From a virus, in IMG/VR virus record IMGVR_UViG_3300037343_000205, positions 1 through 24,565 of that record: a DNA stretch of 24,565 nucleotides, one strand, 5' to 3'. Shown piece by piece: positions 1 to 17,500 of the stretch. A program made the translations under genes and the position numbers. Every line of letters starts with the position of its first letter. Position 1 is the first letter of the stretch. The notes below the pieces were generated by a model, which had not been told where the DNA came from, did no database searches, and worked only from the letters and a program-made list of their open reading frames with translations.

Positions 1-876
1 AGTCAATGCACCGTCATACAATGGCACAATGGCAAGCTGTCCCTGCTCGTATGCTAATCGGTTTAAAATATGGTTGATTATCCTTGCACGTCTTTTGCTA
101 TTAATGCGTGCCGTGTAGATTTCTCGCAGGTTCTCAAGCGCTTGGTCTTCTGTTATTTCTCCCGTCTCAATTTTAGTATTAAGATCCAGGTTTCTGGTTT
201 CATACTGGCCGCATAAGTTGTATGTGTAAGTCGTCTTTGATTCTGGCTTCATTTTGTTTTTAACAATATCGATTACGTTTAAGGTATGCGCGGCATCGTT
301 GATCGCCCTCTGCTGGTCTCGTAGGTCTTTTGATAAGGTCTTGATCCTGTTTGAGATGGTGCGCGTGTTGTTCTTGTGATCCGCATGACCGATCACGCCT
401 TTCGCCCTCCATACCCAATATCCAACGGCCTCGGCTGTGCTGTGCGCGTTATCAATTGCACGCTCGATCTGTTTCTCTGTTTTCTTTGCTTTGCGTTCTG
501 AATGATGGCCGCTTAAGATTGGTTGATTGTTGCCGATCCTATGCATCAAGTCGTTAGCCGCTAACTGATAACCATGGCATTGATCCGATCTCTTTTGAGC
601 CAAGAGAAGCAACCGATCCGCTTTCGCTTCAGCGCGTTCGACCATTGTTAAACCCTCAGGCAGTATATCGCCAGCAAGAGCAAGACAAAAATCTTCGTTA
701 TCAAGTGACCAGTAAGCAACGAACAGCTTTTGAACCGGCGCCCACTTCCAGCCGCTTGACTTCATCGCGGCCCAATCTTCAGAGTCAATGCGGACCTCAG
801 TGTAAATCCTTAGCTTATTGTCTTCAGGTGAATAAGTCGCGCTGAAGTCGTCGGGGTTGTACTTTGATATGTCCAT
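1..876 (-). CDS. DUF3560-domain protein, 3' end outside the window
   Basis: The reading frame is open from an ATG at 876 to the left edge (292 codons, no stop), so the C-terminus is missing. Residues 1-75 form a small domain with several tryptophans (GWKWAP at about 42-47). From about residue 79 the sequence matches the DUF3560 pattern: ERAEAKADRLL, then a Q-P-I-L-S-G-H-H-S-E block at about 118-127, then a long charged helical stretch with KTEKQIERAIDNA. DUF3560 proteins are common on phages and plasmids; to my knowledge their biochemical role is not settled. The start is supported by AAGGT about 7 bases upstream and by a leader repeated before the neighbouring gene. It is the last visible gene of a leftward run. 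The family call is fairly secure; the function is unknown. Confidence 0.82.
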   Translation of the reverse strand, partial: MDISKYNPDDFSATYSPEDNKLRIYTEVRIDSEDWAAMKSSGWKWAPVQKLFVAYWSLDNEDFCLALAGDILPEGLTMVERAEAKADRLLLLAQKRSDQCHGYQLAANDLMHRIGNNQPILSGHHSERKAKKTEKQIERAIDNAHSTAEAVGYWVWRAKGVIGHADHKNNTRTISNRIKTLSKDLRDQQRAINDAAHTLNVIDIVKNKMKPESKTTYTYNLCGQYETRNLDLNTKIETGEITEDQALENLREIYTARINSKRRARIINHILNRLAYEQGQLAIVPLYDGALT

Positions 877-956
877 GTAATTACCTTACTTAGTTGTTTT
901 CGGATGATTCCGACACTAGACCCTTAATAAAAGGCCTAGTGGCAGATCATTTATAT
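877..956 (-). promoter_or_regulatory. Two-hairpin mRNA leader, copy A
   Basis: The gap between two leftward genes carries a leader nearly repeated at 1140-1215. Read on the minus strand, 941-914 forms a 12-pair stem with a 4-base loop. Its two non-Watson-Crick pairs (935/920 and 932/923) are G-U in minus-strand RNA but A-C mismatches on the other strand, so the fold suits leftward RNA. A second small hairpin, CGGA-AUCA-UCCG (912-901), follows, then AACAACUAAGUAAGGU with the ribosome site. A role in translation control or mRNA processing is inferred. Confidence 0.6.
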
Positions 957-1139
957 TTAGCTTTCTTTTAGCGCATTTAACGCCAGTTTGATTTGTTCGC
1001 GCAGTTCACTCTCGGATAAATTCCAGTTGCGCATGTCCAAAGTATCAACAGGCTCTTTCAAAGCAAGTTCGAGATCTTCAATCGTGTTTATTTCAAAGCA
1101 TGCCTCGGCGAATGTGTTTTCTTGAATTTCAATAGTCAT
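957..1139 (-). CDS. Small acidic protein of unknown function (60 aa)
   Basis: I do not recognise this protein. It has 14 Asp/Glu against 5 Lys/Arg (net about -9 in 60 residues), one Cys and no membrane segment. The C-terminal third (SESELREQIKLALNALKES) looks helical. It starts with ATG at 1139, with AAGGT upstream inside a leader that is repeated before the next gene. It begins MTIE, like the 77-residue protein encoded at 1538-1771, though the rest does not match obviously. Small acidic phage early proteins are sometimes DNA mimics that block host nucleases or other host proteins; that is only a possibility here. The shared leader and ribosome site make a real gene likely. Confidence 0.7.
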   Translation of the reverse strand: MTIEIQENTFAEACFEINTIEDLELALKEPVDTLDMRNWNLSESELREQIKLALNALKES

Positions 1140-1215
1140 AAATAATTACCTTACTTAGTTGTTGCGGATGATTCCGACAGTAGCCACTTAAATCAAATGG
1201 CTAGTAGCAGATCAT
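1140..1215 (-). promoter_or_regulatory. Two-hairpin mRNA leader, copy B
   Basis: This is the second copy of the leader at 877-956. The minus-strand stem 1203-1195/1189-1181 has 9 pairs and a 5-base loop. Compared with copy A, two pairs have changed on both sides (G-U to C-G, and C-G to A-U), and the inner U-G pair is kept. The CGGA-AUCA-UCCG hairpin and the AACAACUAAGUAAGGUAAUU tract are identical. Compensatory change between copies argues that the RNA fold is selected. Confidence 0.6.
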
Positions 1216-1310
1216 TGACCTAATAAAAACACTGTTATAAATAGAACACCAATGACATTAAACGCTACCACAAGGCCGATCAATAGTACTTTGATTAATC
1301 GCTGCATCAT
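1212..1310 (-). CDS. Single-pass membrane peptide (32 aa)
   Basis: This short gene starts at ATG 1310, overlapping the stop of the upstream 67-residue gene in an ATGA, with a second ATG directly after. GGAG lies about 9 bases upstream. The product begins MMQRLIKV and continues as an almost unbroken hydrophobic stretch (LLIGLVVAFNVIGVLFITVF) ending in LLGQ. It should be one membrane helix with a short positively charged N-terminus on the inside. The stop overlaps the start of leader copy B. The function is unknown; host-membrane toxins, inhibitors and small lysis helpers can all look like this. The overlap and ribosome site support a real gene, but nothing else confirms it. Confidence 0.55.
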   Translation of the reverse strand: MMQRLIKVLLIGLVVAFNVIGVLFITVFLLGQ

Positions 1311-1510
1311 GCTGCTGTACTCCAATCGTTGATATTAAAATCAGTGTCATAATGATACGCATCAAGAAAAGCGCTCACATCATCAATGGTATACGCTTCA
1401 ATCTCGCAATATGTCTGTGCTTGATCAATAACACATTCAACTGGATAACCTGCAATGCGTAAATAATTGTCATAGTGCTGGTCTAACTGCTGGATCTCTT
1501 GTTCTCTCAT
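1307..1510 (-). CDS. Small very acidic protein of unknown function (67 aa)
   Basis: I do not recognise this protein. It has 14 Asp/Glu, no Lys and 2 Arg (net about -12), and is unusually rich in Tyr (YDNYL, QTYCEIEAYT, DAYHYDTD), with two Cys. It starts with ATG at 1510; a clear AAGGA lies about 9 bases upstream. Its stop overlaps the start of the membrane peptide at 1310, so the two are probably translated together. It sits 27 bases after the 77-residue gene. Charge and size recall DNA-mimic anti-restriction proteins such as T7 Ocr, but there is no sequence match I can point to, and such proteins are usually longer. Confidence 0.68.
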   Translation of the reverse strand: MREQEIQQLDQHYDNYLRIAGYPVECVIDQAQTYCEIEAYTIDDVSAFLDAYHYDTDFNINDWSTAA

Positions 1511-1537
1511 GGTCTTAATTTCCTTAAAACGTTGTTG

Positions 1538-1771
1538 TTAGTATGTCTTTACGACTTTAAAAGCTAGGTCTAGATCACAATCAAACCAGTTATCTGCCAT
1601 CATGTCACCATCAATACGAGCGAACATGACGTATTCTGCAAGCTCGTCGGGTAATGAGTCATCGTTGCAAGTCATATCAAACGATTCACAGATGTTGTCA
1701 ATCATACTGTATTTAATTACTGCATTGTATTGTGTGCCATTATATTGAATTTCTACGTCTTCGATAGTCAT
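1538..1771 (-). CDS. Small acidic protein of unknown function (77 aa)
   Basis: This is the first gene of the leftward run. The product has 17 Asp/Glu against 4 Lys/Arg (net about -13), three Cys and a start MTIEDVEIQYNGTQYNAVIKY that looks like a beta hairpin, followed by acidic clusters (CNDDSLPDELAEY, NWFDCDLDL). I do not recognise a family. The ATG at 1771 is preceded by AGAGAG and by AACAACUAA, the same word that precedes the ribosome sites in the two hairpin leaders, although the hairpins are absent here. Its promoter is either near 1862-1900 or the leftward module at 2264-2290. Confidence 0.68.
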   Translation of the reverse strand: MTIEDVEIQYNGTQYNAVIKYSMIDNICESFDMTCNDDSLPDELAEYVMFARIDGDMMADNWFDCDLDLAFKVVKTY

Positions 1772-1861
1772 TTGTTTAAACTCTCTATTTAGTTGTTAAG
1801 TCGTCATGTATTTAATCAAGTCAGTGCTTTTCGCTGATGCTCTTGATCGCTTAATTCTTAA

Positions 1862-1879
1862 CTTAACAAAGATGTTAAG
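1862..1879. promoter_or_regulatory. Inverted repeat, possible operator
   Basis: CTTAAC-AAAGAT-GTTAAG has perfect 6-base arms and a 6-base centre. It lies 91 bases upstream of the first leftward gene, next to TTGATT on the minus strand. The symmetry suits a dimeric repressor site, but no regulator gene is visible in the window. Confidence 0.3.
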
Positions 1880-2079
1880 ATAAATCAAGTAAATCGGCAC
1901 ACCTATTTGTAATTAAGGGGATGAGTCAAGGCTGAGTCAAGAATTAGCAGGGCTACAGGGTGCGCGGTTGCTGGGTTTCTTTGTTCCGTTGGCTCAGTGC
2001 AGCACAGGTCAGGAGGGTGAGACAGTTTCCTTGATCTTAGTAATGGCGTGGCTTGTGGCTCTGTTACTTAACATTATTG

Positions 2080-2162
2080 TATATATATATATATATATAT
2101 AGTGTATGTATTATGTATATATGGTGGCTGTGGTGGCTGTGGCTGTGGCTGTGTGTGTGTGG
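2080..2162. repeat. TA and GGCTGT microsatellite
   Basis: Eleven TA units (2080-2101) are followed by a short AT-rich link and then imperfect GGTGGCTGT/GGCTGT units ending in (GT)n to 2162. The TA run should melt easily. A 19-codon hydrophobic reading frame from ATG 2043 runs into the TA tract and stops at 2100-2102, but it has no ribosome site. Confidence 0.8.
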
Positions 2163-2263
2163 TCACCAAAGCTGGAACATGGTGAGTCAGTGAGTTAAAT
2201 GCCTGTAGACCACGTCAGGCAAGGGCTAGAGCGGTTCAGGGGGGGTAAGTCGGTAATCTTGGA

Positions 2264-2290
2264 TTTGTACAATAAACGTACATTAGTCAA
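2264..2290 (-). promoter_or_regulatory. Leftward promoter-like module
   Basis: On the minus strand, TTGACT (2290-2285) is followed after 15 bases by TACAAA (2269-2264). The GTAC-N7-GTAC box at 2267-2281 overlaps the spacer and -10. It mirrors the rightward module at 2309-2335. The 15-base spacing is short for a sigma-70 promoter, so an activator or phage factor may be involved. It would read toward the small leftward genes. Confidence 0.4.
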
Positions 2291-2332
2291 CCTTTTTGCT
2301 AATTTGCATTGACAACAGTACAAAATACGTAC
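2267..2332. repeat. Paired GTAC-N7-GTAC boxes (possible operators)
   Basis: GTACAATAAACGTAC (2267-2281) and GTACAAAATACGTAC (2318-2332) match at 13 of 15 positions in the same orientation, 51 bases apart (about five helical turns). Each overlaps the -10 of one of two back-to-back promoter-like modules. A shared regulator could bind both and switch the two directions. Confidence 0.45.
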
Positions 2333-2335
2333 AAT
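2309..2335 (+). promoter_or_regulatory. Rightward promoter-like module
   Basis: TTGACA (2309-2314) and TACAAT (2330-2335) are near-consensus hexamers separated by 15 bases, with the box at 2318-2332 between and over them. It points toward the virion genes, the first of which starts about 560 bases away. Confidence 0.42.
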
Positions 2336-2561
2336 TTACTTCTTCAAGGGGTATTTTGCGGCTAATAATAACTTGAACAAGTCACTACCTAATCAACTGA
2401 TGACTATAAAGTCACTCGGACACTAAGTGTCTTCCCTTGACCAGCAGCGCAGAAATTAGGCCAATCTTGACCGTCAAGTCATGAAGCAACGCCAACACAT
2501 AGTTACCTGTCAACTTGCTTTGAGGTGTGCCGAGTGAGTCAGCGTGCAAAGGATCGTAGTT

Positions 2562-2729
2562 ATGGCAAGGCTTAGAACATCGGCACAGGGTCTACAGGGG
2601 CGAGTCAGTAGCAAGATCATCGTTATTTTGCTGCTTCCTTACTTCGATCCTTCGCTACTACATAAAAACACGGTAGCAAATCACGTCAAGAAAAAAGATT
2701 TCCAGTACCTTTTTGCTTTTCCGTTTTAG
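2562..2729 (+). CDS. Possible small protein (55 aa), doubtful
   Basis: ATG 2562 is preceded by AAAGGA with an 8-base gap, a good ribosome site. The product starts MARLRTSAQGLQGRV, has a short hydrophobic core (IIVILLLPYF), then a basic part (HVKKKDF) and ends FAFPF. The frame also runs upstream to a GTG at 2544. I do not recognise it, it lies in an otherwise non-coding region and overlaps the GTCA word cluster, so it may be a chance frame. Confidence 0.22.
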   Translation: MARLRTSAQGLQGRVSSKIIVILLLPYFDPSLLHKNTVANHVKKKDFQYLFAFPF

Positions 2730-2837
2730 GATCTCGGTTTCTGAGAGCTGCGATCGCCAGGCGGGGGTTTAGTCTATATTATATATACATACAGTAAGCT
2801 TACACACAGAACCAAAAAAATAAAAAACCCAAGGTAC

Positions 2838-2866
2838 TTGACTGCTATTACGAAAGCTATTAAATT
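2838..2866 (+). promoter_or_regulatory. Likely promoter of the virion operon
   Basis: TTGACT (2838-2843), a 17-base spacer and TAAATT (2861-2866) end about 28 bases before the first virion gene. The heptamer GCTATTA repeats directly at 2844 and 2856 with a 12-base period, which could be a regulator site. An A-rich stretch (2814-2827) lies just upstream. Confidence 0.45.
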
Positions 2867-2894
2867 ACATCTATTTAATTAAGCGGTGACACGT

Positions 2895-3707
2895 ATGATT
2901 TCAGACTTCATGGCGAAGAAACGAATTGACTGGATAATTGACCCAAGGGTTGCTGATATCGATGGAACTTGGATGCCGGGTAGCAAAGATGTAACGCGAG
3001 TATGGGATGTGTGTTCTGCGAGAGAAAGAGAGGCGATAGTTGCATTTATCTCATGTGATACTTACGGCGAGGTGATACAACGGATAACAAGTATGTCACT
3101 TCAAGCATGTGTTACGCTGTTACAGACAAACAAAAAAGTAGTGTTAGCGGTGGTTGCAGGTCGCTTGTGTAATTTGCCATCGGATACTGCGCGTTATATG
3201 TATTTGGACACGTTGATGTCAACGGTGCATCAGAGGGAAATTCATCGAAACGAAATCAGTTCAATTATTAAAACGGACAAAGACCATTTAATTGAGTTAT
3301 CGCAGAAGCTTAAAATTGATGGTGATGGGAAGCGAGATATTTTAAAGCAATTGGTAGCTTATGGCATGCAGACTAAATTACATGAGGAGGCAGAGCTTGA
3401 TCATGCGACTGGTTTGGTCAGTAGGCCAGCGGTGTATACATTAGCGGATCCGAGAATGGCGTTGTTGTCTGTTCAAGAGTTGAATAAGATGGACCATGAG
3501 TACAGTGAGGATGAGTCAAGTACATCGAGTACTGAGTCTCAAGCTGAGAGAATTAGACGTTTAAGACAAACGGCGCCAAAAGAAATTCTAAAGACATTGA
3601 ATGACACAGCGAACCGAGAGGCGAAGAAATTGAATGGGATTGCCAAGCAGATATCTAAGCGACAAATGAGTGATCTAGAAAAACTTGAAAACGGTGATTC
3701 TGAATGA
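2895..3707 (+). CDS. Putative terminase small subunit
   Basis: This gene directly precedes and overlaps the large terminase by four bases (ATGA), the usual place for the small subunit, which recognises the phage DNA and hands it to the packaging motor. The 270-residue product has no motif I recognise firmly. The middle is helical (about 80-180), residues 205-225 are Ser/Glu-rich (SEDESSTSSTESQAERIRR) and the C-terminus is highly charged. Many small subunits are shorter. A GTG at 2886 would add three residues, but I chose ATG 2895 because GGTGA sits just before it, as in several other genes here (8472, 11433). The name rests on position; a different DNA-binding protein is possible. Confidence 0.55.
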   Translation: MISDFMAKKRIDWIIDPRVADIDGTWMPGSKDVTRVWDVCSAREREAIVAFISCDTYGEVIQRITSMSLQACVTLLQTNKKVVLAVVAGRLCNLPSDTARYMYLDTLMSTVHQREIHRNEISSIIKTDKDHLIELSQKLKIDGDGKRDILKQLVAYGMQTKLHEEAELDHATGLVSRPAVYTLADPRMALLSVQELNKMDHEYSEDESSTSSTESQAERIRRLRQTAPKEILKTLNDTANREAKKLNGIAKQISKRQMSDLEKLENGDSE

Positions 3708-5278
3708 ATGCGTCTGAGAAATTACAACTAGAAAGAAATAAAGCCCAGGCTGAGATAGATCAATTTGTGTATTTATGCATGCACGACTTTGAGTTTTTTG
3801 CTAAAACATGCTTAAAAATTAAGACTAAAACGGACGGCATACAGAATTTAAAGTTCAATAAAGCGCAGCATTACCTGCAGAGTGTCGTCGATGACATGAC
3901 AAAAGAGCATGGGAAAGTCCGAGTAATTATTGTCAAAGGTCGTCAGCAAGGGCTTTCGACATGGGTGCAGGCCAGAGGGTATTGGAAAACAAGTCAAAAC
4001 GAGGGTGTTAAGGCGTTTATTTTGACGCATGAGAACCAGGCAACGAAGAATTTGTTTGAGATGACCAAGCGATATCACGACAATGCCCCGGTGGATGTCA
4101 AACCGTTAGTCAAAAAATCGAACAGGGAAGAGTTAGAATTCCATGAGATTGATTCTCAGTACTCAGTTGGTACGGCAAAGACAGGTGATACAGGACGTTC
4201 TCAGACAATACAGTTTTTTCACGGCAGCGAAGTTGCTTATTGGCGAGCAGCAGAAGATATTTCATCCGGTGCGATGGAGGGCATACCAGAAGCCCCTGGT
4301 ACAGAAGTCTACTTAGAAAGCACAGCGGCGGGGTTTGGTGGTTATTTTCATTCGATGTGGCAAAATGCAATTTATCCAGGTGAGGAGATACACAGCAAAT
4401 GGAATGGGTACATCCGGGTGTTTGTACCTTGGACCTGGCAGGATGAATATCGAGAGCCGCTTCGGGATGCAATTGAATATACTCGCGAAGAAGTTGAGTT
4501 AAAGCGTCTGCATAAACTTGATGATGAGCAGATCCAGTTTCGTCGTATGAAAATTGCAAAAATGAAAAACGATGTTTCTCGGTTCCAGCGAGATTATCCG
4601 CTTACACCTGAGGATGCATTTAACTCATCTCTGATCAATGTGCTGATCCAACCAAACAAAGTGATGAAGGCTAGGGCCAAAGGCAGATCGAAATATTATC
4701 AACCAGTGGGCGTGATGGTATTGGGTATCGACGTAGCAAGGGAAGGCGATGATTCGACTGCGCTAGTGCTAAGGCAAGGCCGGATCATGCACTGGTATAA
4801 ACGTTTCAATAAGTTAGATAACATGGAAGTTGCGGGGATCTGTATTAACATCATTAGGCAATATCGCGTTGACTTTGGCTGCATTGACTCAACAGGAGGT
4901 TACGGCGCAGGGGTTTACGATCGCATGGTAGAACTAGGTTATGGCAGTAAAATAACTGCAGTGAACTTTGGTAGTAAAGCATTCGATGATGAACACTATA
5001 AAAACCGTAGAGCCGAGATGTGGGTTGGTATTCGAGAGTGGTTGGACGAGGGCGCACAGATGCCTGACCGAGACGAGATACAACTCGATTTATGTGCGGT
5101 AACCTACAAACACGACAGCACCGGAGAGCGCCTTCAGCTTGAGTCTAAAGCCGATATGAAAAAGCGCGGCATTAAGTCTCCTGACATCGGTGATGCATTA
5201 GCTTTGACATTTGCGAGACCTAGAGTAAACTTAAGCGGAAAAGGTGAGTCATTTGATCCAGAAGAATATTTCAATTAA
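3704..5278 (+). CDS. terL: Terminase large subunit
   Basis: This is the ATP-driven DNA packaging motor with a C-terminal nuclease (524 aa, normal length). The Walker A variant KGRQQGLST lies at 78-86. A Walker B-like stretch IQFFHGSEVAYW (169-180) ends with the likely catalytic Glu176, and the coupling motif LESTAAG lies at 204-210. The RNase H-like nuclease domain follows: GIDVAREGDDSTAL at 341-354 (Asp343), CIDSTGGYGAGVYD at 393-406 (Asp395) and SPDIGDALALTF at 492-503 (Asp494/Asp497). All expected acidic residues are present. The protein docks on the portal encoded at 5933. The start is fixed by the ATGA overlap with the upstream gene and GGTGA before it. Confidence 0.95.
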   Translation: MNASEKLQLERNKAQAEIDQFVYLCMHDFEFFAKTCLKIKTKTDGIQNLKFNKAQHYLQSVVDDMTKEHGKVRVIIVKGRQQGLSTWVQARGYWKTSQNEGVKAFILTHENQATKNLFEMTKRYHDNAPVDVKPLVKKSNREELEFHEIDSQYSVGTAKTGDTGRSQTIQFFHGSEVAYWRAAEDISSGAMEGIPEAPGTEVYLESTAAGFGGYFHSMWQNAIYPGEEIHSKWNGYIRVFVPWTWQDEYREPLRDAIEYTREEVELKRLHKLDDEQIQFRRMKIAKMKNDVSRFQRDYPLTPEDAFNSSLINVLIQPNKVMKARAKGRSKYYQPVGVMVLGIDVAREGDDSTALVLRQGRIMHWYKRFNKLDNMEVAGICINIIRQYRVDFGCIDSTGGYGAGVYDRMVELGYGSKITAVNFGSKAFDDEHYKNRRAEMWVGIREWLDEGAQMPDRDEIQLDLCAVTYKHDSTGERLQLESKADMKKRGIKSPDIGDALALTFARPRVNLSGKGESFDPEEYFN

Positions 5279-5289
5279 GGTATTTTGAT

Positions 5290-5481
5290 ATGTCTAGTAA
5301 CACCATAGTAAAATCTCCTATCGTAACCTTTCGAAAAATAAATGCGTCTGCGTTAGTGCAACAACTTGAGGGCCCTGAACCTAAATACCCAGTGTATACG
5401 TTTGGATCTACTCGCAAATTTGAGCGTCCGGAACACCCAGGTAATGAATACCGCTGGCTAGACGACCAAGAGGATTTTTAA
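5290..5481 (+). CDS. Hypothetical protein (63 aa)
   Basis: This is a small soluble protein of unknown function between the terminase and portal genes. It starts with ATG 5290, with AAGGT about 9 bases upstream. The first half is mixed hydrophobic (NTIVKSPIVTFRKINASALVQQL); the second is rich in Pro, Tyr and charged residues (EGPEPKYPVY, FERPEHPGNEYRWLDDQEDF). It ends two bases before the next gene, so the two are probably coupled. I do not recognise a family. Confidence 0.65.
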   Translation: MSSNTIVKSPIVTFRKINASALVQQLEGPEPKYPVYTFGSTRKFERPEHPGNEYRWLDDQEDF

Positions 5482-5483
5482 TA

Positions 5484-5936
5484 GTGAGTATTATCTTACC
5501 CAATAACTATGTGCTGACAAAACAAAAAGCTCAAAACAAACTGACTGCCGATAGAGAAGAAGATGCAAAAGCTCAGCACAAACTTGAATTAGAAATAGTT
5601 CAAGATCCAGAGGAGGCTATCTTTAGAGTCAAAGACTTTGAAATTGCTAAGATGGTAGGAGCCGCATTATGTCATAAATATCCGAATCATGGATGGCAGA
5701 TTGAAGCAGATAGTCGCAACGGCATAGCTAAAATATTTATGTCTCAAATGAGCAGTTCTCAGGGCTATATTTACAAGCTAAAAGATATTTCACTTGGTAC
5801 TTTTGACCGTGAGATGATGCGAGTAGGGGGTGAAATGCTTGAACGTTTTAGCATATCACGGGGTAGATTTAATGAGGATAGCATTAAAAACGTAATGCGC
5901 GATCCTCGCGGCAACGCAATAGCGGATTTATCATGA
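5484..5936 (+). CDS. Hypothetical protein (150 aa)
   Basis: The gene starts with GTG 5484; AGAGGA lies about 9 bases upstream and no ATG is placed better. It overlaps the portal gene by four bases (ATGA). The N-terminus (about 12-45) is a charged, likely helical segment. The middle FEIAKMVGAALCHKYPNHGW is followed by a short beta-like stretch and a basic C-terminus. I do not recognise a family. Its tight coupling between terminase and portal suggests a role in packaging or in the portal vertex; this is inference from position only. Confidence 0.68.
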   Translation: MSIILPNNYVLTKQKAQNKLTADREEDAKAQHKLELEIVQDPEEAIFRVKDFEIAKMVGAALCHKYPNHGWQIEADSRNGIAKIFMSQMSSSQGYIYKLKDISLGTFDREMMRVGGEMLERFSISRGRFNEDSIKNVMRDPRGNAIADLS

Positions 5937-8101
5937 GCAGAACTGATACGCAAGACACTGATGAAGTATTGACGCAAGGTTATACGAAAGAAGATAAACC
6001 TGATACGAAATCAGAAAGAGAAGCTTACTTTATTGAATTAGCACGAAGCAACTTTAACACTGCTAAAACGTACATGGATACAGCTCTTTCAACGCAGTGG
6101 GAGCAAAATGCTGATCACTTTAACAATAAGCATGGAAGAAGAAGTCGATACAACTCAAAACAGCATAAAGGCAGCAGCCGTATATTTAGGCCATTAAGTA
6201 GAGCATCTGAGCGGTCCTCATCGGCAACAGCAGCAGCAGCACTCTTTAGTAACTTAGATGTGCTTGACTTACAACCAGAAAATAAAAACGATCCCGCTCA
6301 AGTATTTTCAGCCAGAGTAATGAAAAATATTGTTGCTTATTATCTTGATAGAAAAATCCCATGGTATTTAACTGTTATGGGCGCTTGGCAAGACACTCGT
6401 GTATATGGACCTTGCTGCAGCTTTACAGATTGGCGTTTTAAATCAAAAGAAGTTACAACCGAAGTACCAGTTTTAAATATATATGGCAAACCCAAAGAAG
6501 ATGGAAGTACACAAAAAATAACTGAAACCGTTGTAGTAAAAGATGAGCCATATATTGATTTGATCCCAGTTGAGAATTTACTCTTAGATCCCGCTTGTGA
6601 CTGGAGGGACCCAATTAATTCCAGTCCGTATGTCATTTACTTGAAAGCAATGGCGATCACCGATGCTACGCACATGATGGCAAGCGGAGAATGGAATACT
6701 TACTCAGAAACGGAATTACTCGCTGCCACTGATCATACGTACAACACTGTGACATCAGCTCGTGACGGCGATAACCGACCGGATGCTCGTGACAGCCAAA
6801 CAAAAACAGAGTTTAAAACTGTTTGGATACATTACAACTTTGTAAGAATGGATGGTGAGGAATATTTCTACTTAACAGCAGGAACCCAATTACTTCTTAC
6901 AGACATTAAAAAACTAGAAGAAGACTACCCAACTGGTATGCGGCCCCTTACATACGGTTTCAGTGTCATAGAAGCACATAAATTTGCGCCTAATTCACCA
7001 ACTGAAATTATCAGTGGGCTGCAAGTAGGAGTCAATGATATTGCAAATCTGCGTATCGATAATATTCGATTAGCTCTAAACAAACGATATGTAATTCGGC
7101 GTGGAGCTACCGTTGACCTTGAAGCATTAATGCGTTCTGTACCAGGTGGCGGTATCGTTACAGATGACGTAGATAAAGATATCAAAGTGCTTGACACACG
7201 AGATGTAACAGGATCTAGCTACAAGGAACAAGAAAGACTCGAAACTGAAAGTAATGATATTTCAGGAACGTTTATGGGCAGTTCAATTCAAAACAACCGA
7301 AACTTAAATCAAACTGTAGGCGGCATGGAAATGCTTGCAGATGGACAAAGTGCATTAAGTGACATGGATATCCGAACGTTTGCCGAGTCATGGGTAAAAC
7401 CACAACTTGAATTACTTATTTTAAATATTCAAGCTTTTACACCTGACGAAGTTATTCAAACCATTGCATTAGAAGGTGCTGAAAAAGATCTTCAGTACTT
7501 ACAACGTTTTGAACCTGATTTAAAAAATGACCCAGAAGCTGATGTAAAAAGACGAAAGCTAAAAAACGATATAATGGCTAAAACGTTAAAAGAAAAAATG
7601 ACAGTAAGAGTCAATGTTGGATTAGGTGCTACGAGTCCACAACGTAAAGTATCTACATTACTTTCAGCTGTAACAGCTGCAATGCAGTTACCTGGACAGG
7701 GCGCTCGTATTAACGAAGAAGAAGTTACCAAAGAAATATTTACTGCAAGTGGATTAGCGGATGGAGCTCGTTTCATATTGCCGAAGGAAGATGAGCCACA
7801 ACTGACGCAAGAAGATCTGCAAGCAGCTCAAGAGCAAGGCATGCAAGAAGGCCAAGACCAGATTAAATTACGTGAGATTGAAGCTAATTTAACTTTAGGT
7901 GAAGGCAAACTAGAGCTACAGCGTGAGTTAGGATATGCAGAGCTTGCACAAAAGGAAAATATAACGTTAAAAGAATTAGAAACTAGACTTGAAATTACAT
8001 ATCGCAAAGATCAAACACATAGAGACATATCAGCTTTACGTGAAAGATTAAAATCTCAAGAGTTAGAATTTAAACGAGTGACAGGCAAACCAGGAATATA
8101 G
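5933..8101 (+). CDS. Portal protein
   Basis: This forms the ring at the capsid vertex through which DNA is packed and ejected, binding terminase and then the tail adaptor. Its 722 residues are close to the large podovirus portals (P22 type, about 725). Typical portal stretches are visible: KIPWYLTVMGAWQDTRVYG (141-159), an IPVENLLLDPACDWRDP segment near 215-232, and a helical segment with QVGVNDIANLRIDNIRLALN followed by the GGGIV turn near 400. The last 100 residues (EDLQAAQEQGMQEG onward) are a long charged helix, as in portals with a C-terminal barrel or coiled coil. It starts in the ATGA overlap with the upstream gene. Confidence 0.9.
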   Translation: MSRTDTQDTDEVLTQGYTKEDKPDTKSEREAYFIELARSNFNTAKTYMDTALSTQWEQNADHFNNKHGRRSRYNSKQHKGSSRIFRPLSRASERSSSATAAAALFSNLDVLDLQPENKNDPAQVFSARVMKNIVAYYLDRKIPWYLTVMGAWQDTRVYGPCCSFTDWRFKSKEVTTEVPVLNIYGKPKEDGSTQKITETVVVKDEPYIDLIPVENLLLDPACDWRDPINSSPYVIYLKAMAITDATHMMASGEWNTYSETELLAATDHTYNTVTSARDGDNRPDARDSQTKTEFKTVWIHYNFVRMDGEEYFYLTAGTQLLLTDIKKLEEDYPTGMRPLTYGFSVIEAHKFAPNSPTEIISGLQVGVNDIANLRIDNIRLALNKRYVIRRGATVDLEALMRSVPGGGIVTDDVDKDIKVLDTRDVTGSSYKEQERLETESNDISGTFMGSSIQNNRNLNQTVGGMEMLADGQSALSDMDIRTFAESWVKPQLELLILNIQAFTPDEVIQTIALEGAEKDLQYLQRFEPDLKNDPEADVKRRKLKNDIMAKTLKEKMTVRVNVGLGATSPQRKVSTLLSAVTAAMQLPGQGARINEEEVTKEIFTASGLADGARFILPKEDEPQLTQEDLQAAQEQGMQEGQDQIKLREIEANLTLGEGKLELQRELGYAELAQKENITLKELETRLEITYRKDQTHRDISALRERLKSQELEFKRVTGKPGI

Positions 8102-12461: not shown

Positions 12462-14501
12462 ATGCGAAGCCCCATTCAGGGATCTGTAATTCTAGGAGGC
12501 GGTCTAGACTTAATAACGCCTCCACTTGAGGTTCCTCCTGGTCGAGTCCTTCAAATAAAAAACTTTGAGTGCGATTTAAACAACGGATATAGAGTCTCAA
12601 AAGGATTCGAACGTTTTGACGGACGTAACTCGCCAACAGCAAGTAGCTTTCAAACGTTAGCAGTGGCTTCCACAACCGGATGGCAACAAAACGAAACTGT
12701 AACAGGAACTACGTCCGGAGCCACATCTAAAATTTTTAAAGTCGGGGCTACCAGCCTTTATACAGCCGAGATAACAGGTGTTTATCAAGCAGCTGAAACT
12801 ATCACAGGGTCAGTATCAGGAGCGTCAACTACAATAACTCAATCTGCAACAAATATATTACTTGATGATAATGAAGTATTTAATGAAATACGATATTTAA
12901 AAGAAATTTATCTTCGAGATAAAATTCAGAAGATGCCTGGACAGGGACCCGCGAGAGGTGCTTACCGTCATTTAGACATTGCATTAGGAGTTAGAGATTT
13001 TAACGATACTGAAGCGCGTATGTATAAGTCAACTGCAACAGGTTGGCAGCAAATAGTTGCATCTTATGTTGTGTTTTTTGACGCTGTTACTGATATTGCT
13101 TTACTTGTGCATGGTGCAACAGTTAGTGATGGCACAAACACTGCAACACTGATAGCTCATTCAGTTAAAAACATAGGTGCATCAACTGGGTACGTAGTAC
13201 TAACAGGAGCCGCAACAGGATTTGCTAACAATGATAGCTTATCGGTTGGTGGTTCAGTTGCTGTTACTCTTTCAACAGATGCCGAGCTTGTAACATTAGA
13301 GCCTGGTGGTCGTTTTGAATGGTACTCATACAATTTTACTGGTGGAGCTCAGCGTTACAGAGTGTACTGCTGTGATGGCGTAAACCCTGCATTTGAATAT
13401 GATCCTACCACAAACACAATAGCGCCTATTTACACTGATATTGAAAACATTGCAACAGATACACCTAAATTTTTAGCAACCTATCGAAATCATTTATTCT
13501 TAGGTTTTGCAGATGGGAAAATGAGAAATTCAGAACCAGGTAATCCTTTTCTGTACGATGCAGCGGCAGGAACAATTGATTTTTCAATCGGAGCGCCGAT
13601 CAGCGGGTTTGATAGTACTGCAAAAGCGTTGCTGATAGCGACTACTAGAGATACGTTTGCACTGACAGGACAAGTAGCGGAGAATTTTACACTTGATTTA
13701 GCTGCTGATCGTGTAGGTGCTAAACCCTTTACGATGGCACATATCAGTACAACATATATGCTGGATGATCGTGGAGTAGTTGCTTTGAACCGAGCTCAAG
13801 AGTTTGGTAACTTCCAAGACTCTACAATTTCAAGATTAATACAACCGCTTTTAAATGATCTAAAGAATACAATTGTTGCAAGTATCACAGTACTTTCGAC
13901 AAATACATATAAGATGTACACAGAAGACGGCAAAGGGGTCACAGTTACGTTTCAGGAAGGCCAAGCTATTGGGTTTGGATTTTTTGATCTAGGCATTGGC
14001 ATTTATGCAACAAGCACTGCAGAAGACGATCTAGGACAGGAGCGTATCTTAGCATCATCTACTGATGGGCATGTGTACGAACTTGAACGTGGAAGATCGT
14101 TTGATGGAGCATCCAAAAGTTCTTGGCTTCGAACCGTATATCATTTCTTAGAGTCACCTGCGTATCGCAAGAAGTTCTACCGGGCGTTTATAGGGGCTGT
14201 CATAAGCGGCACGGCAACGTTAAAGATAGGAGCTGACTTCTCACTAGGCACAGATGATGCAAACTCATTAGGCACGATAACAGAGACTGTGAAGGGACAA
14301 GATGGTTCGTGGGACGTAGGCCAATACGATACAGCTGTATTTGACGGTAAGGTAGTATCAGATGTATATTTGGATTTAGATGGCACTGGGGAGTCAATTA
14401 GTTTAATATTTAACCACGATTCGCCAAGTGATGATATATTTACGCTTAAAGATATTCTTTACTCTTACAAAATGCGAAGACCTCAGAGGGCTAGACGATA
14501 A
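12462..14501 (+). CDS. Putative tail nozzle / tubular tail protein
   Basis: This 679-residue beta-rich protein is encoded between the adaptor and the fibre, the place of podovirus nozzle or 'tubular protein B/gp10-like' proteins. The N-terminus IQGSVILGGGLDLITPPLEV, then PGRVLQIKNFECDLNNGYRV and GFERFDG, is typical of these proteins, as is the later pattern FLATYRNHLFLGFADGKMRNSEPG. Residues of about 60-130 and 190-275 are Thr/Gly/Ala-rich inserted segments (for example GWQQNETVTGTTSGATSK) that look like small beta domains on the outside. AAGGTGAAGGTG lies before ATG 12462. It ends in a one-base overlap (TAATG) with the fibre gene. Confidence 0.68.
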   Translation: MRSPIQGSVILGGGLDLITPPLEVPPGRVLQIKNFECDLNNGYRVSKGFERFDGRNSPTASSFQTLAVASTTGWQQNETVTGTTSGATSKIFKVGATSLYTAEITGVYQAAETITGSVSGASTTITQSATNILLDDNEVFNEIRYLKEIYLRDKIQKMPGQGPARGAYRHLDIALGVRDFNDTEARMYKSTATGWQQIVASYVVFFDAVTDIALLVHGATVSDGTNTATLIAHSVKNIGASTGYVVLTGAATGFANNDSLSVGGSVAVTLSTDAELVTLEPGGRFEWYSYNFTGGAQRYRVYCCDGVNPAFEYDPTTNTIAPIYTDIENIATDTPKFLATYRNHLFLGFADGKMRNSEPGNPFLYDAAAGTIDFSIGAPISGFDSTAKALLIATTRDTFALTGQVAENFTLDLAADRVGAKPFTMAHISTTYMLDDRGVVALNRAQEFGNFQDSTISRLIQPLLNDLKNTIVASITVLSTNTYKMYTEDGKGVTVTFQEGQAIGFGFFDLGIGIYATSTAEDDLGQERILASSTDGHVYELERGRSFDGASKSSWLRTVYHFLESPAYRKKFYRAFIGAVISGTATLKIGADFSLGTDDANSLGTITETVKGQDGSWDVGQYDTAVFDGKVVSDVYLDLDGTGESISLIFNHDSPSDDIFTLKDILYSYKMRRPQRARR

Positions 14502-17500
14502 TGGCAAATGATTACTACGACGCTCCAGATGCAAAGCAACCATTAGAGATCATAAGATCTTCTGAATACAATACAAATAATTTAGCAACCGAAGCAGCGT
14601 TTGATAAACTCCCGACTGAAGAGCAGATAAACAGATCTCAATATGGAGAAGACGTTAGCACAGTTGCAACACTATACAAAGTAACTGTTCCAGTACTTAA
14701 CTTAGGGTACTACACTGGCCTTGAAATTGTATTTGAAGCTAAGTTCACCAATATAGGCGCCGCAAGTATTCAAATTAATACAGATGTGATTGAAGATCTT
14801 GTTGATGTACTAGGAGATCCTTTATCTGCAGGTGATATTGTAATCGGCCAAATAGTTACTGTAGTATATACCTCCAACTCAGTTTTCCAAGTTCAGTTTA
14901 GGGCTGACGCTCGTGTACTTGCCGAACAAGCAGCTGCGTCAGCTCTAGCAGCTTCCGTATCCGAGACAAATGCTGCAAATAGCGAAAGCGCAGCGTCTAC
15001 TTCAGAAGGCAACGCAGCAACCAGCGAGACGAATGCAGCCAATAGCGCAAGTGGTGCGTCAACAAGTGAAAGTAACGCGTCAACAAGTGAAAGTAACGCG
15101 TCTACGAGCGAGACGAATTCATCAAATAGCGCAAGTGGTGCTTCAACAAGTGCAAGTAATGCTTCAACAAGTGCAAGTAATGCTTCAACAAGTGCGAGTA
15201 ACGCTTCAACAAGTGCAAGTAACGCGTCTATAAGCGAGAACAATGCAGGTACAAGCGAGAACAATGCAGGGAATAGTGCCACAAGTGCTGCCAATTCTTT
15301 TGACTCATTTGATGACCGTTATCTAGGCGCTAAAACGAGTGATCCAACAGTAGACAATGACGGTGATGCGATTATAACAGGCGCTTTATATTTCAATAGC
15401 AACACTGATAACATGCGCGTTTACACGGGTTCAGCGTGGGCTAATATTGCAGATTTAACAGGCTCTGTTGATATTAACGGTGGAACCATTGACGGTACAG
15501 CAATTGGTGAAACGGCAAAAAGCACAGGTAAGTTTACTACTTTAGAAGCTGATAATATTTCTACATTTGGTGCCTCTTTGATAGATGACGCAGATGCCGC
15601 AACAGCACGTTCTACATTAGGGTTAGGCACTGCGGCTACCACTGCCGCTTCAGCTTACTTTGCCGCATCATCAGTATCTACATTTGGTGCATCGTTGGTA
15701 GATGACGCAAGTGCATCAGCGGCACGTTCTACATTAGGGCTAGGCTCGGCAGCTACTACCGCCGCTTCAGCTTATTTTGCCGCTTCATCAGTATCTACAT
15801 ATGGTGCATCGTTGGTAGATGACGCAGATGCCGCAGCAGCGCGTTCTACATTAGGGCTAGGCACTGCGGCTACTAAAAACACCGGTGATTTAGGGACAAT
15901 CGGTATTGAAAATGGCAGTGCCGCCGCGCCCTCGCTAAACAATACTGGTAATACAAACACGGGGCTGTTTTTTCCTGCGGCTGATAGTATTGGATTTGCT
16001 ACTGGTGGCGCAGAAAGGTTACGCATAAATTCAGCTGGTGACTTGCAATTTAACCGTAGCGGCACAGCACTTTTAACCGTCACAAGCGAAGCGAGTATTG
16101 GTCAAATTGAAATGCTTGATGCCACAACTGGCTTTTTCTTTTCTAGGGCTGGCACAAACGTATTAGGCTTTGCGCCCAATGAGGGCGCGGTATTTAGGCC
16201 TGCAGACGATAACGTTTTGGATTTAGGCAAAGCCGATAGACGATTCAAAGATTTATTTTTAAGTAACGATGCAACTATTGCTGGTGTCGTTAAATTAGGT
16301 AACGGTAGCGCTGGCGCTCCTTCATTAACTAATATCGGCGATGATAACACAGGGTTATTTTTTCCTGCTGATAATGAAATTGGATTTGCTACTGGTGGTG
16401 CTGAAAGAATGCGGATTGATTCTAATGGTAACGTCGGAATAGGCACTAACAACCCAAGTGCTAAGCTAGAAGTAAGCAGCGATGTGCTTGTAAATGGATT
16501 AACCCTTGGACTTGGTGCTAGCAGTGTTTCCACAAACACTGCACTCGGCGATTCCGTACTTAGCGAAAACACAACTGGCGCCCTAAACAGCGCGATTGGC
16601 TTTAACGCCCTTTTACTCAATACAACTGGCGGAGACAACACTGCTGTCGGGGTTCGCGCTCTAAGGGAAAACACAATTGGCGCCCTAAACAGCGCGTTTG
16701 GTACGAACGCCCTTTTATTCAACACAACTGGTAATAATAACACCGCAAGCGGGTTTCGCGCTCTTACAAGTAATACCACTGGCAGCAACAACACGGCGCT
16801 TGGTAAAAACTCAGGGCAATTAATAACCACAGGCTCTAAGAATACGATACTAGGTAGCTTTAACGGCAATCAAAACGGGCTAGACATAAGATCCGCCGAT
16901 AACTATATAGTTCTCGCAGACGGCGACGGCGTTCCTAGAATAGTGGTTGATTCTAGCGGTAATCTCGGAATAGGCATAACAAACCCAAGTGAAAAATTAC
17001 ACGTTGCGGGCGCGGTAAGCATTACTGACGGTAGTGCAGGCTCGCCTGCATTGACTAATAACGACGACACAAACACGGGTATGTTTTTCCCTGTTGCTGA
17101 CGAAATTGGCTTTAGTACTGGCGGCAGCGAAAGGGTCCGTATTGACGACGGTGGCAATCTTATTGTAGGTAAGACTAGTAATGACGCTAGCGCCGTAGGA
17201 ACTTATATAAGAAGTTCTGGTGATATATATGGCACCACAAACAACTTTCAAGTTGCTAGTTTTCGTAGGAACGGCACTTCAGGGGCAATTATTGCCTTTC
17301 AGTCAGGCGTTACTAGCACAGGCAGTATATCAGTCAGCGGCTCTACTACTACTTATAACTCAACTTCTGACTATCGTTTAAAAAACGACATTAAGCCTAT
17401 TGAAACTGCGGTGGAAAAAGTCATGGCGCTTAACCCTTGTAATTTTGCTTGGAATTTAGACGACACCCGAAGCAACGGATTTATAGCGCATGAGGTTCAA

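Follow-up and report, generated by a model that had tools for sequence, protein, structure and literature searches.

Paired 11-base direct repeats at the single divergent junction of a metagenomic phage as candidate origin iterons

The promoter-like element at 2264..2335 is best explained, with a probability of about 0.5, as two pairs of 11-base direct repeats that form part of an iteron-type replication origin filling the phage's single divergent intergenic region. The window, which is the whole stretch of DNA analysed, is an entire virus record from IMG/VR (24,565 bases). The repeat itself, its conservation in one relative, the adjacent AT run, the flip in GC skew and, in distant relatives, a comparable layout built on other repeats are all seen directly. 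On this interpretation, what drew attention as an unusual promoter becomes a probable phage origin that carries candidate recognition units, and the phage group concerned is represented here chiefly by metagenomic sequences. The element also provides a clear test case in which origin repeats diverge and the layout is kept.

Repeated boxes between the two gene arms

The nearest relative of the window is IMGVR_UViG_3300031269_000018 (G001; 54,952 bases), with a terminase 98% identical to that of the window and a DNA identity of ~92-94% across shared blocks. A DNA-level search of the phage collection returned no close relatives of the window, and none of the 12 candidate stretches from a terminase search of the genome contig collection were confirmed. 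The Vibrio phage relatives H1 and H4 have a different organisation and neither was usable for comparison. The large reading frames that occupy ~7.2 to 29.6 kb of G001 point leftward, and their products include a family A DNA polymerase, a primase-helicase, methylases, a SNF2-type helicase and a DUF3560 protein. Large reading frames in the opposite direction occupy 30.7 kb to the end as well as 1-7177, and among them are genes for the terminase, portal, capsid and tail, named from the window's own proteins. The reading-frame layout of both genomes leaves one divergent intergenic region (window 1772..2885, ~1.1 kb), with a replication arm leading off to its left and a structural arm to its right, and the promoter-like modules and their boxes sit inside it. 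Two features of the flanking genes are recorded here as observations. Between the terminase and portal genes, G001 has an extra gene of 1,079 residues (33235-36474; 13235-16474 in locus L015) that is missing in the window (5279-5308) and that, by eye, appears to carry PKD-type repeats. The first left-arm protein of the window (1541-1771, minus strand; 77 residues) has no family match, appears very acidic by eye, and could be a DNA mimic.

The sequence-only reading had described two hexamer pairs with 15-base spacers, each overlapped by a 15-base box, and all of these are present. The leftward module consists of TTGACT (2290-2285, minus strand), 15 bases and TACAAA (2269-2264), and the rightward module of TTGACA (2309-2314, plus strand), 15 bases and TACAAT (2330-2335). 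The boxes at 2267-2281 and 2318-2332 are identical at 13/15 positions and start 51 bases apart. Their proposed placement on the same face of the helix holds only approximately, as 51 bp corresponds to 4.86 turns at 10.5 bp per turn, or ~50° off. A direct 15-mer pair with at least 13/15 identity within 120 bp, in which each copy has self-complementary 4-base arms, appeared in none of 1,000 dinucleotide shuffles of 1772-2885, so that the box repeat exceeds chance; without the arm condition, such pairs occur in 8.7% of shuffles. Same-arm palindrome pairs number two in the region against a mean of 0.078, a count reached by 0.6% of 500 shuffles. The second pair, TGAC-N6-GTCA at 2401-2414 and 2468-2481 (67 bases apart), is also found in G001. 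Across the window, GTAC is not enriched (78 copies vs. 93.5 expected), and GTACN7GTAC occurs eight times with up to one mismatch (three exact) vs. 5.97 expected. An Rfam search of 1700-2950 gave no match up to E 1, and a literature search found no paper on the GTAC-N7-GTAC motif.

Only three of the 72 positions in 2264..2335 differ in G001 (2298, 2315 and 2333). The TTGAC hexamers are both kept there, as is each of the 30 box positions, and the change at 2333 converts TACAAT to TACGAT. With so few changes in 72 bases, the sparing of the boxes is not significant by itself. The surrounding block that holds both the AT run and the boxes (1852-2344) is conserved in G001 with 20/493 positions differing, while 57 of the next 267 bases differ. 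When the box 23-mer and the box-pair pattern were searched in the viral contig collection, G001 was the sole carrier. The prediction that relatives would share the boxes is thus borne out in G001, where both are unchanged, but not further, as the GTAC repeat was found in no lineage beyond G001.

The boxes are better read as 2+2 copies of a direct repeat, GTACAAWWWAC, than as a palindrome. All four units lie on the plus strand. Unit 1 (GTACAATAAAC, 2267..2277) and unit 3 (GTACAAAATAC, 2318..2328) fit the consensus, unit 2 (GTACATTAGTC, 2278..2288) is degenerate, and unit 4 (GTACAATTTAC, 2329..2339) is a third perfect copy. In G001 the first three are unchanged and unit 4 reads GTACGATTTAC. On both strands of the 24,565-base window, GTACAAWWWAC occurs only at 2267, 2318 and 2329, all on one strand and within 2267-2339. 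The bases that follow each GTAC in the four units are AATAAAC, ATTAGTC, AAAATAC and AATTTAC, so that all four units share A at base 5 and C at base 11, and three of the four agree at bases 6 and 10. The dyad symmetry of the box stops at GTAC, which is self-complementary alone, while direct-repeat identity reaches further. Since GTAC is self-complementary, two copies 11 bases apart resemble a palindrome, and the agreement at bases 5 and 11 favors the direct repeat. Dyad symmetry of the whole 72-base element was also rejected, as 17/36 positions match and the best centre of 300/300 shuffles does as well. Lastly, the “-10” TACAAT of the rightward module is the start of unit 4, and the TTGACA/TACAAT match can come from the repeat array.

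Promoter-like sites and transcriptional explanations

Promoter likeness was scored in the window, G001, G003, G005 and G006, using a weight matrix built on general sigma-70 frequencies and 15-19-base spacers. The rightward module (TTGACA/TACAAT) carries 11/12 consensus bases and the leftward module (TTGACT/TACAAA) is weaker at 9/12. Both have a 15-base spacer, compared to 16-18 for sigma-70, and a scan limited to 16-18 listed neither. The rightward module has the highest score in the region (11.28), but 32% of 150 shuffles contain a site that scores as high, and in G001, where its -10 is TACGAT, the score drops to 9.05, a value that 87% of shuffles attain. The leftward module scores 5.69 and ranks 36th within the region. 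A sigma-70 promoter pair was therefore rejected, as neither module exceeds chance. TTGAC/GTCAA is present in 10 copies in the region vs. 3.5 expected, and CTTGAC in seven vs. 0.5. As TTGAC recurs throughout, neither “-35” hexamer has to be read as a true -35. Of the switch between leftward and rightward transcription that had been proposed, one part survives: a control or start site is reasonable here, as a genuine and conserved repeat marks the sole divergent junction. As sigma-70 promoters, neither module beats chance.

Promoter-like sites with 17-base spacers adjoin the genes at the region edges in the window and most relatives. The leftward candidate (1912..1940, minus strand; TTGACT-17-CTTAAT, with TCTAAT in G001) is weak in the window, where 99% of shuffles reach its score, and better in G001 (19%). 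It is overlapped by a tandem 11-base repeat, GAGTCAAGGCT / GAGTCAAGAAT, at 1923..1944 on the plus strand. The rightward candidate (2838..2866, plus strand; TTGACT-17-TAAATT) lies 20 bases upstream of where the right-arm genes begin. A site in the equivalent place is found in G001, G003 and G006, where it ranks first on the plus strand; in the window it ranks second, and G005 has none there. The best minus-strand site lies at most 300 bases from the left end in G001, G003, G005 (16-base spacer) and G006, and the site so placed in the window ranks third. The left site of G003 (TTGACA-17-TATATT, reached by 1% of shuffles) is the sole edge site that is strong by itself.

The main rival to origin iterons, which we rank second after them and regard as possible but unlikely, is that the boxes are the operator pair of a phage transcription regulator over divergent promoters, where a bound dimeric repressor or activator would set early leftward vs. 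later rightward transcription. Divergent promoter/operator switches are known from lambda and tet. The Pc/Pr promoters of pLS20 with Rco offer a precedent for divergent promoters with paired operators and looping, and share with the window the paired boxes at a divergent transcription junction (PMC4207663). The real box repeat, the TTGAC hexamers at mirrored positions and the 11/12 consensus bases of the rightward module argue for operators. Against operators, the modules here do not exceed shuffles in promoter likeness, their spacers are 15 bases and the -10 is altered in the relative, and promoter candidates with normal spacers are found next to the genes.

A candidate binder for an operator pair is a small ribbon-helix-helix (RHH)-like protein encoded directly upstream of the primase in G001 (L015 2366-2578, minus strand), G003 (P0001) and G007 (P0002). 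This counts in favor of operators, but G008 has a different protein in this place, leaving 3/4 relatives with the RHH-like one, and among the G001 proteins scanned there was no regulator with a confident family match. A Pfam search did not recognise the protein. Its AlphaFold model (pLDDT 75.9) contains two helices as expected, with no strand assigned in the monomer. The best Foldseek match is the RHH domain of F-plasmid TraM (E 1.9), and VIA-align against this domain gave Z 5.4 over 51 residues, both weak. Among solved sequences, its profile had 10 matches up to E 5, seven of them bromodomains, and no DNA-binding relative was recognised. The RHH-like protein could bind the boxes under either the iteron or the operator reading. 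TraM tetramers bind GANTC motifs (PMC8136818), and TraM-like GANTC sites were rejected as targets of the protein since they are not enriched in the region (5 vs. 3.5 expected, P 0.28). The DUF3560 protein was set aside as an initiator, with an unusable model (pLDDT 42) and no solved relative, and a PF06970 (RepA_N) search matched 0/4 relatives and none of the control genomes either.

Many plasmid initiators repress their own or nearby transcription by binding origin repeats, and the boxes could likewise be both iterons and operators. The tandem GAGTCAAG repeat (1923-1944) overlapping the leftward promoter candidate (1940-1912) and the CTTGAC/GTCAAG copies scattered over the region fit such a mixed region, yet the GTAC units lie clear of the promoter candidates next to the genes, and we consider it improbable. 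Least probable is a chance repeat without function, retained because the two known genomes are closely related: only one relative, at ~92% DNA identity, carries the boxes and their 30 unchanged positions are not significant alone, but the shuffles never produced such a pair, and three perfect 11-base units fall within 73 bases with none elsewhere in the window.

Origin features of the junction

Several features of the junction are consistent with an iteron-type origin. A 22-base AT run at 2080..2101 lies in the window's most AT-rich 60 bases (52/60, starting at 2062-2064) and is a candidate DNA-unwinding element. Around it are eight GTGG tetramers (2047..2163, plus strand), the window's densest plus-strand 120 bases for this motif. 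The G001 replicase/primase-helicase matches the helicase region of 6k9c/6k9e (E 1.8e-16), listed only as “Primase”, which we take to be the NrS-1 enzyme. GTGG is an efficient recognition site of the NrS-1 primase-polymerase (PMC8718748), and by analogy only, the GTGG cluster may be tied to NrS-1-like priming. The likeness to the NrS-1 system (PMC8718748) consists of the helicase match and the clustering of GTGG beside the AT run; the differences are that the NrS-1 site TTTGGTTA is absent from the junction and that G001 has a family A DNA polymerase in addition.

The minimum of GC skew is at 1867 in the window and at 29555 in G001, where the cumulative skew turns at 29555, the divergent junction, and again at 7404, where the arms converge. 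In G008 the skew also turns near the ends, which fall in the junction, and G007 has no clean reversal over its minus-strand arm. As skew and gene direction flip together, skew alone is no proof of an origin.

In an iteron origin, a phage initiator would bind units about one helical turn apart and melt the AT run at 2080-2101, and the NrS-1-like primase-helicase of the phage would then load, with two forks starting. The “-35” and “-10” hexamers would be parts of repeated motifs, and the two arms would be transcribed mainly from promoters at the region edges. Similar features are described for iteron-type origins of plasmids, of the PLE satellite of Vibrio phage ICP1 and for RepA_N iterons: direct repeats with a semi-palindromic look around an A-rich centre, at a non-coding site between divergent operons with an AT-rich stretch nearby (PMC7145576). 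There, the PLE origin repeats between divergent operons act as iterons, and by BLASTP the sequence of PLE RepA does not evidently resemble those of the staphylococcal RepA proteins (PMC7145576). The window differs from these origins in having four units only, in two separated pairs. The small number of units, one of them degenerate, and the 51 bases between the pairs, compared to the dense arrays of the relative L046 described below, count against an iteron origin.

Junctions of distant relatives

Junctions were compared in G003 (L017), G005 (L008), G006 (L021) and L046, and in part in G002 (L018) and G008. Capsid relatives gave 30 loci, of which 29 (L042-L070) were inspected and L007 was left out. 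On our reading, L046 alone among the 29 adds a divergent region upstream of the terminase; of the others, L042 and L044 correspond to G001 and G002, and L048 and L050 are the G006/G007 phage already in the comparison.

The clearest relative with a similar layout and different repeats is L046, with 11-base iterons (GGGGCTTGCAC) to the left and inverted copies to the right of a 26-base AT run at 2016, along with an extra 12-base repeat, GGGGATCAGAGA. Viewed as a whole, the inverted 11-base iteron arrays around the AT run (1910-2310) make this a very origin-like junction. G003 has 11-base GGTTCAAGGTC repeats with inverted copies, and GGTTCAAGGTC and GCCAACAG repeats surround its AT run. In G006, TGTCTAA repeats lie 11 bases apart with inverted copies across an AT stretch, and G005 contains palindromic repeats of the TGTATAGGTGT type. 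The repeat-distance check gave no 11-base signal in G005. AT runs of at least 14 bases occur mid-junction in the window, G001, G003 and G005, with none that long in G006. The most enriched 7-mer of the G006 junction is ATATATA, which ranks first or second in G003, G005 and G006 and has zero copies elsewhere in each. Summed over five regions, the commonest repeat lag is 11 (15), but lags of 10 (14), 8 (13) and 16 (13) are close, and a repeat spacing of about one helical turn is therefore suggestive rather than proven.

A broader and rather doubtful proposal is that in this tailed-phage lineage, with its NrS-1-like primase-helicase, replication starts at one fixed arm junction where the origin architecture, an AT run flanked by iterons about one turn apart and often in inverted arrays, is kept and the iteron sequence is wholly replaced. 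This would imply a fast-changing initiator-iteron pair and a possible incompatibility or exclusion code between related phages.

Separate from the boxes, a terminase-proximal block of ~130 bases before the right-arm genes (window 2703-2830, plus strand) is kept across distant relatives and is identical in the window and G001. Its counterparts are at ~1088-1250 in L008, 4520-4380 in L017 and 13774-13600 in L018 (both minus strand), ~4955-5110 in L021 and, by eye only, ~3165-3290 in L046. A search of Rfam returned no match to the block. Its motifs are GTACC or GACTCC, a T run, GATCG/GATTC, GGGG..TTTAG or CTTGG, and TATATATA, and it may be a packaging site or a leader. At the start of the left arm, L008 also has a 13-base inverted repeat without mismatches, CTATGTCCGATAC/GTATCGGACATAG, along with palindromic boxes of the CCTATACA type, three in number (948-979 and 326-406).
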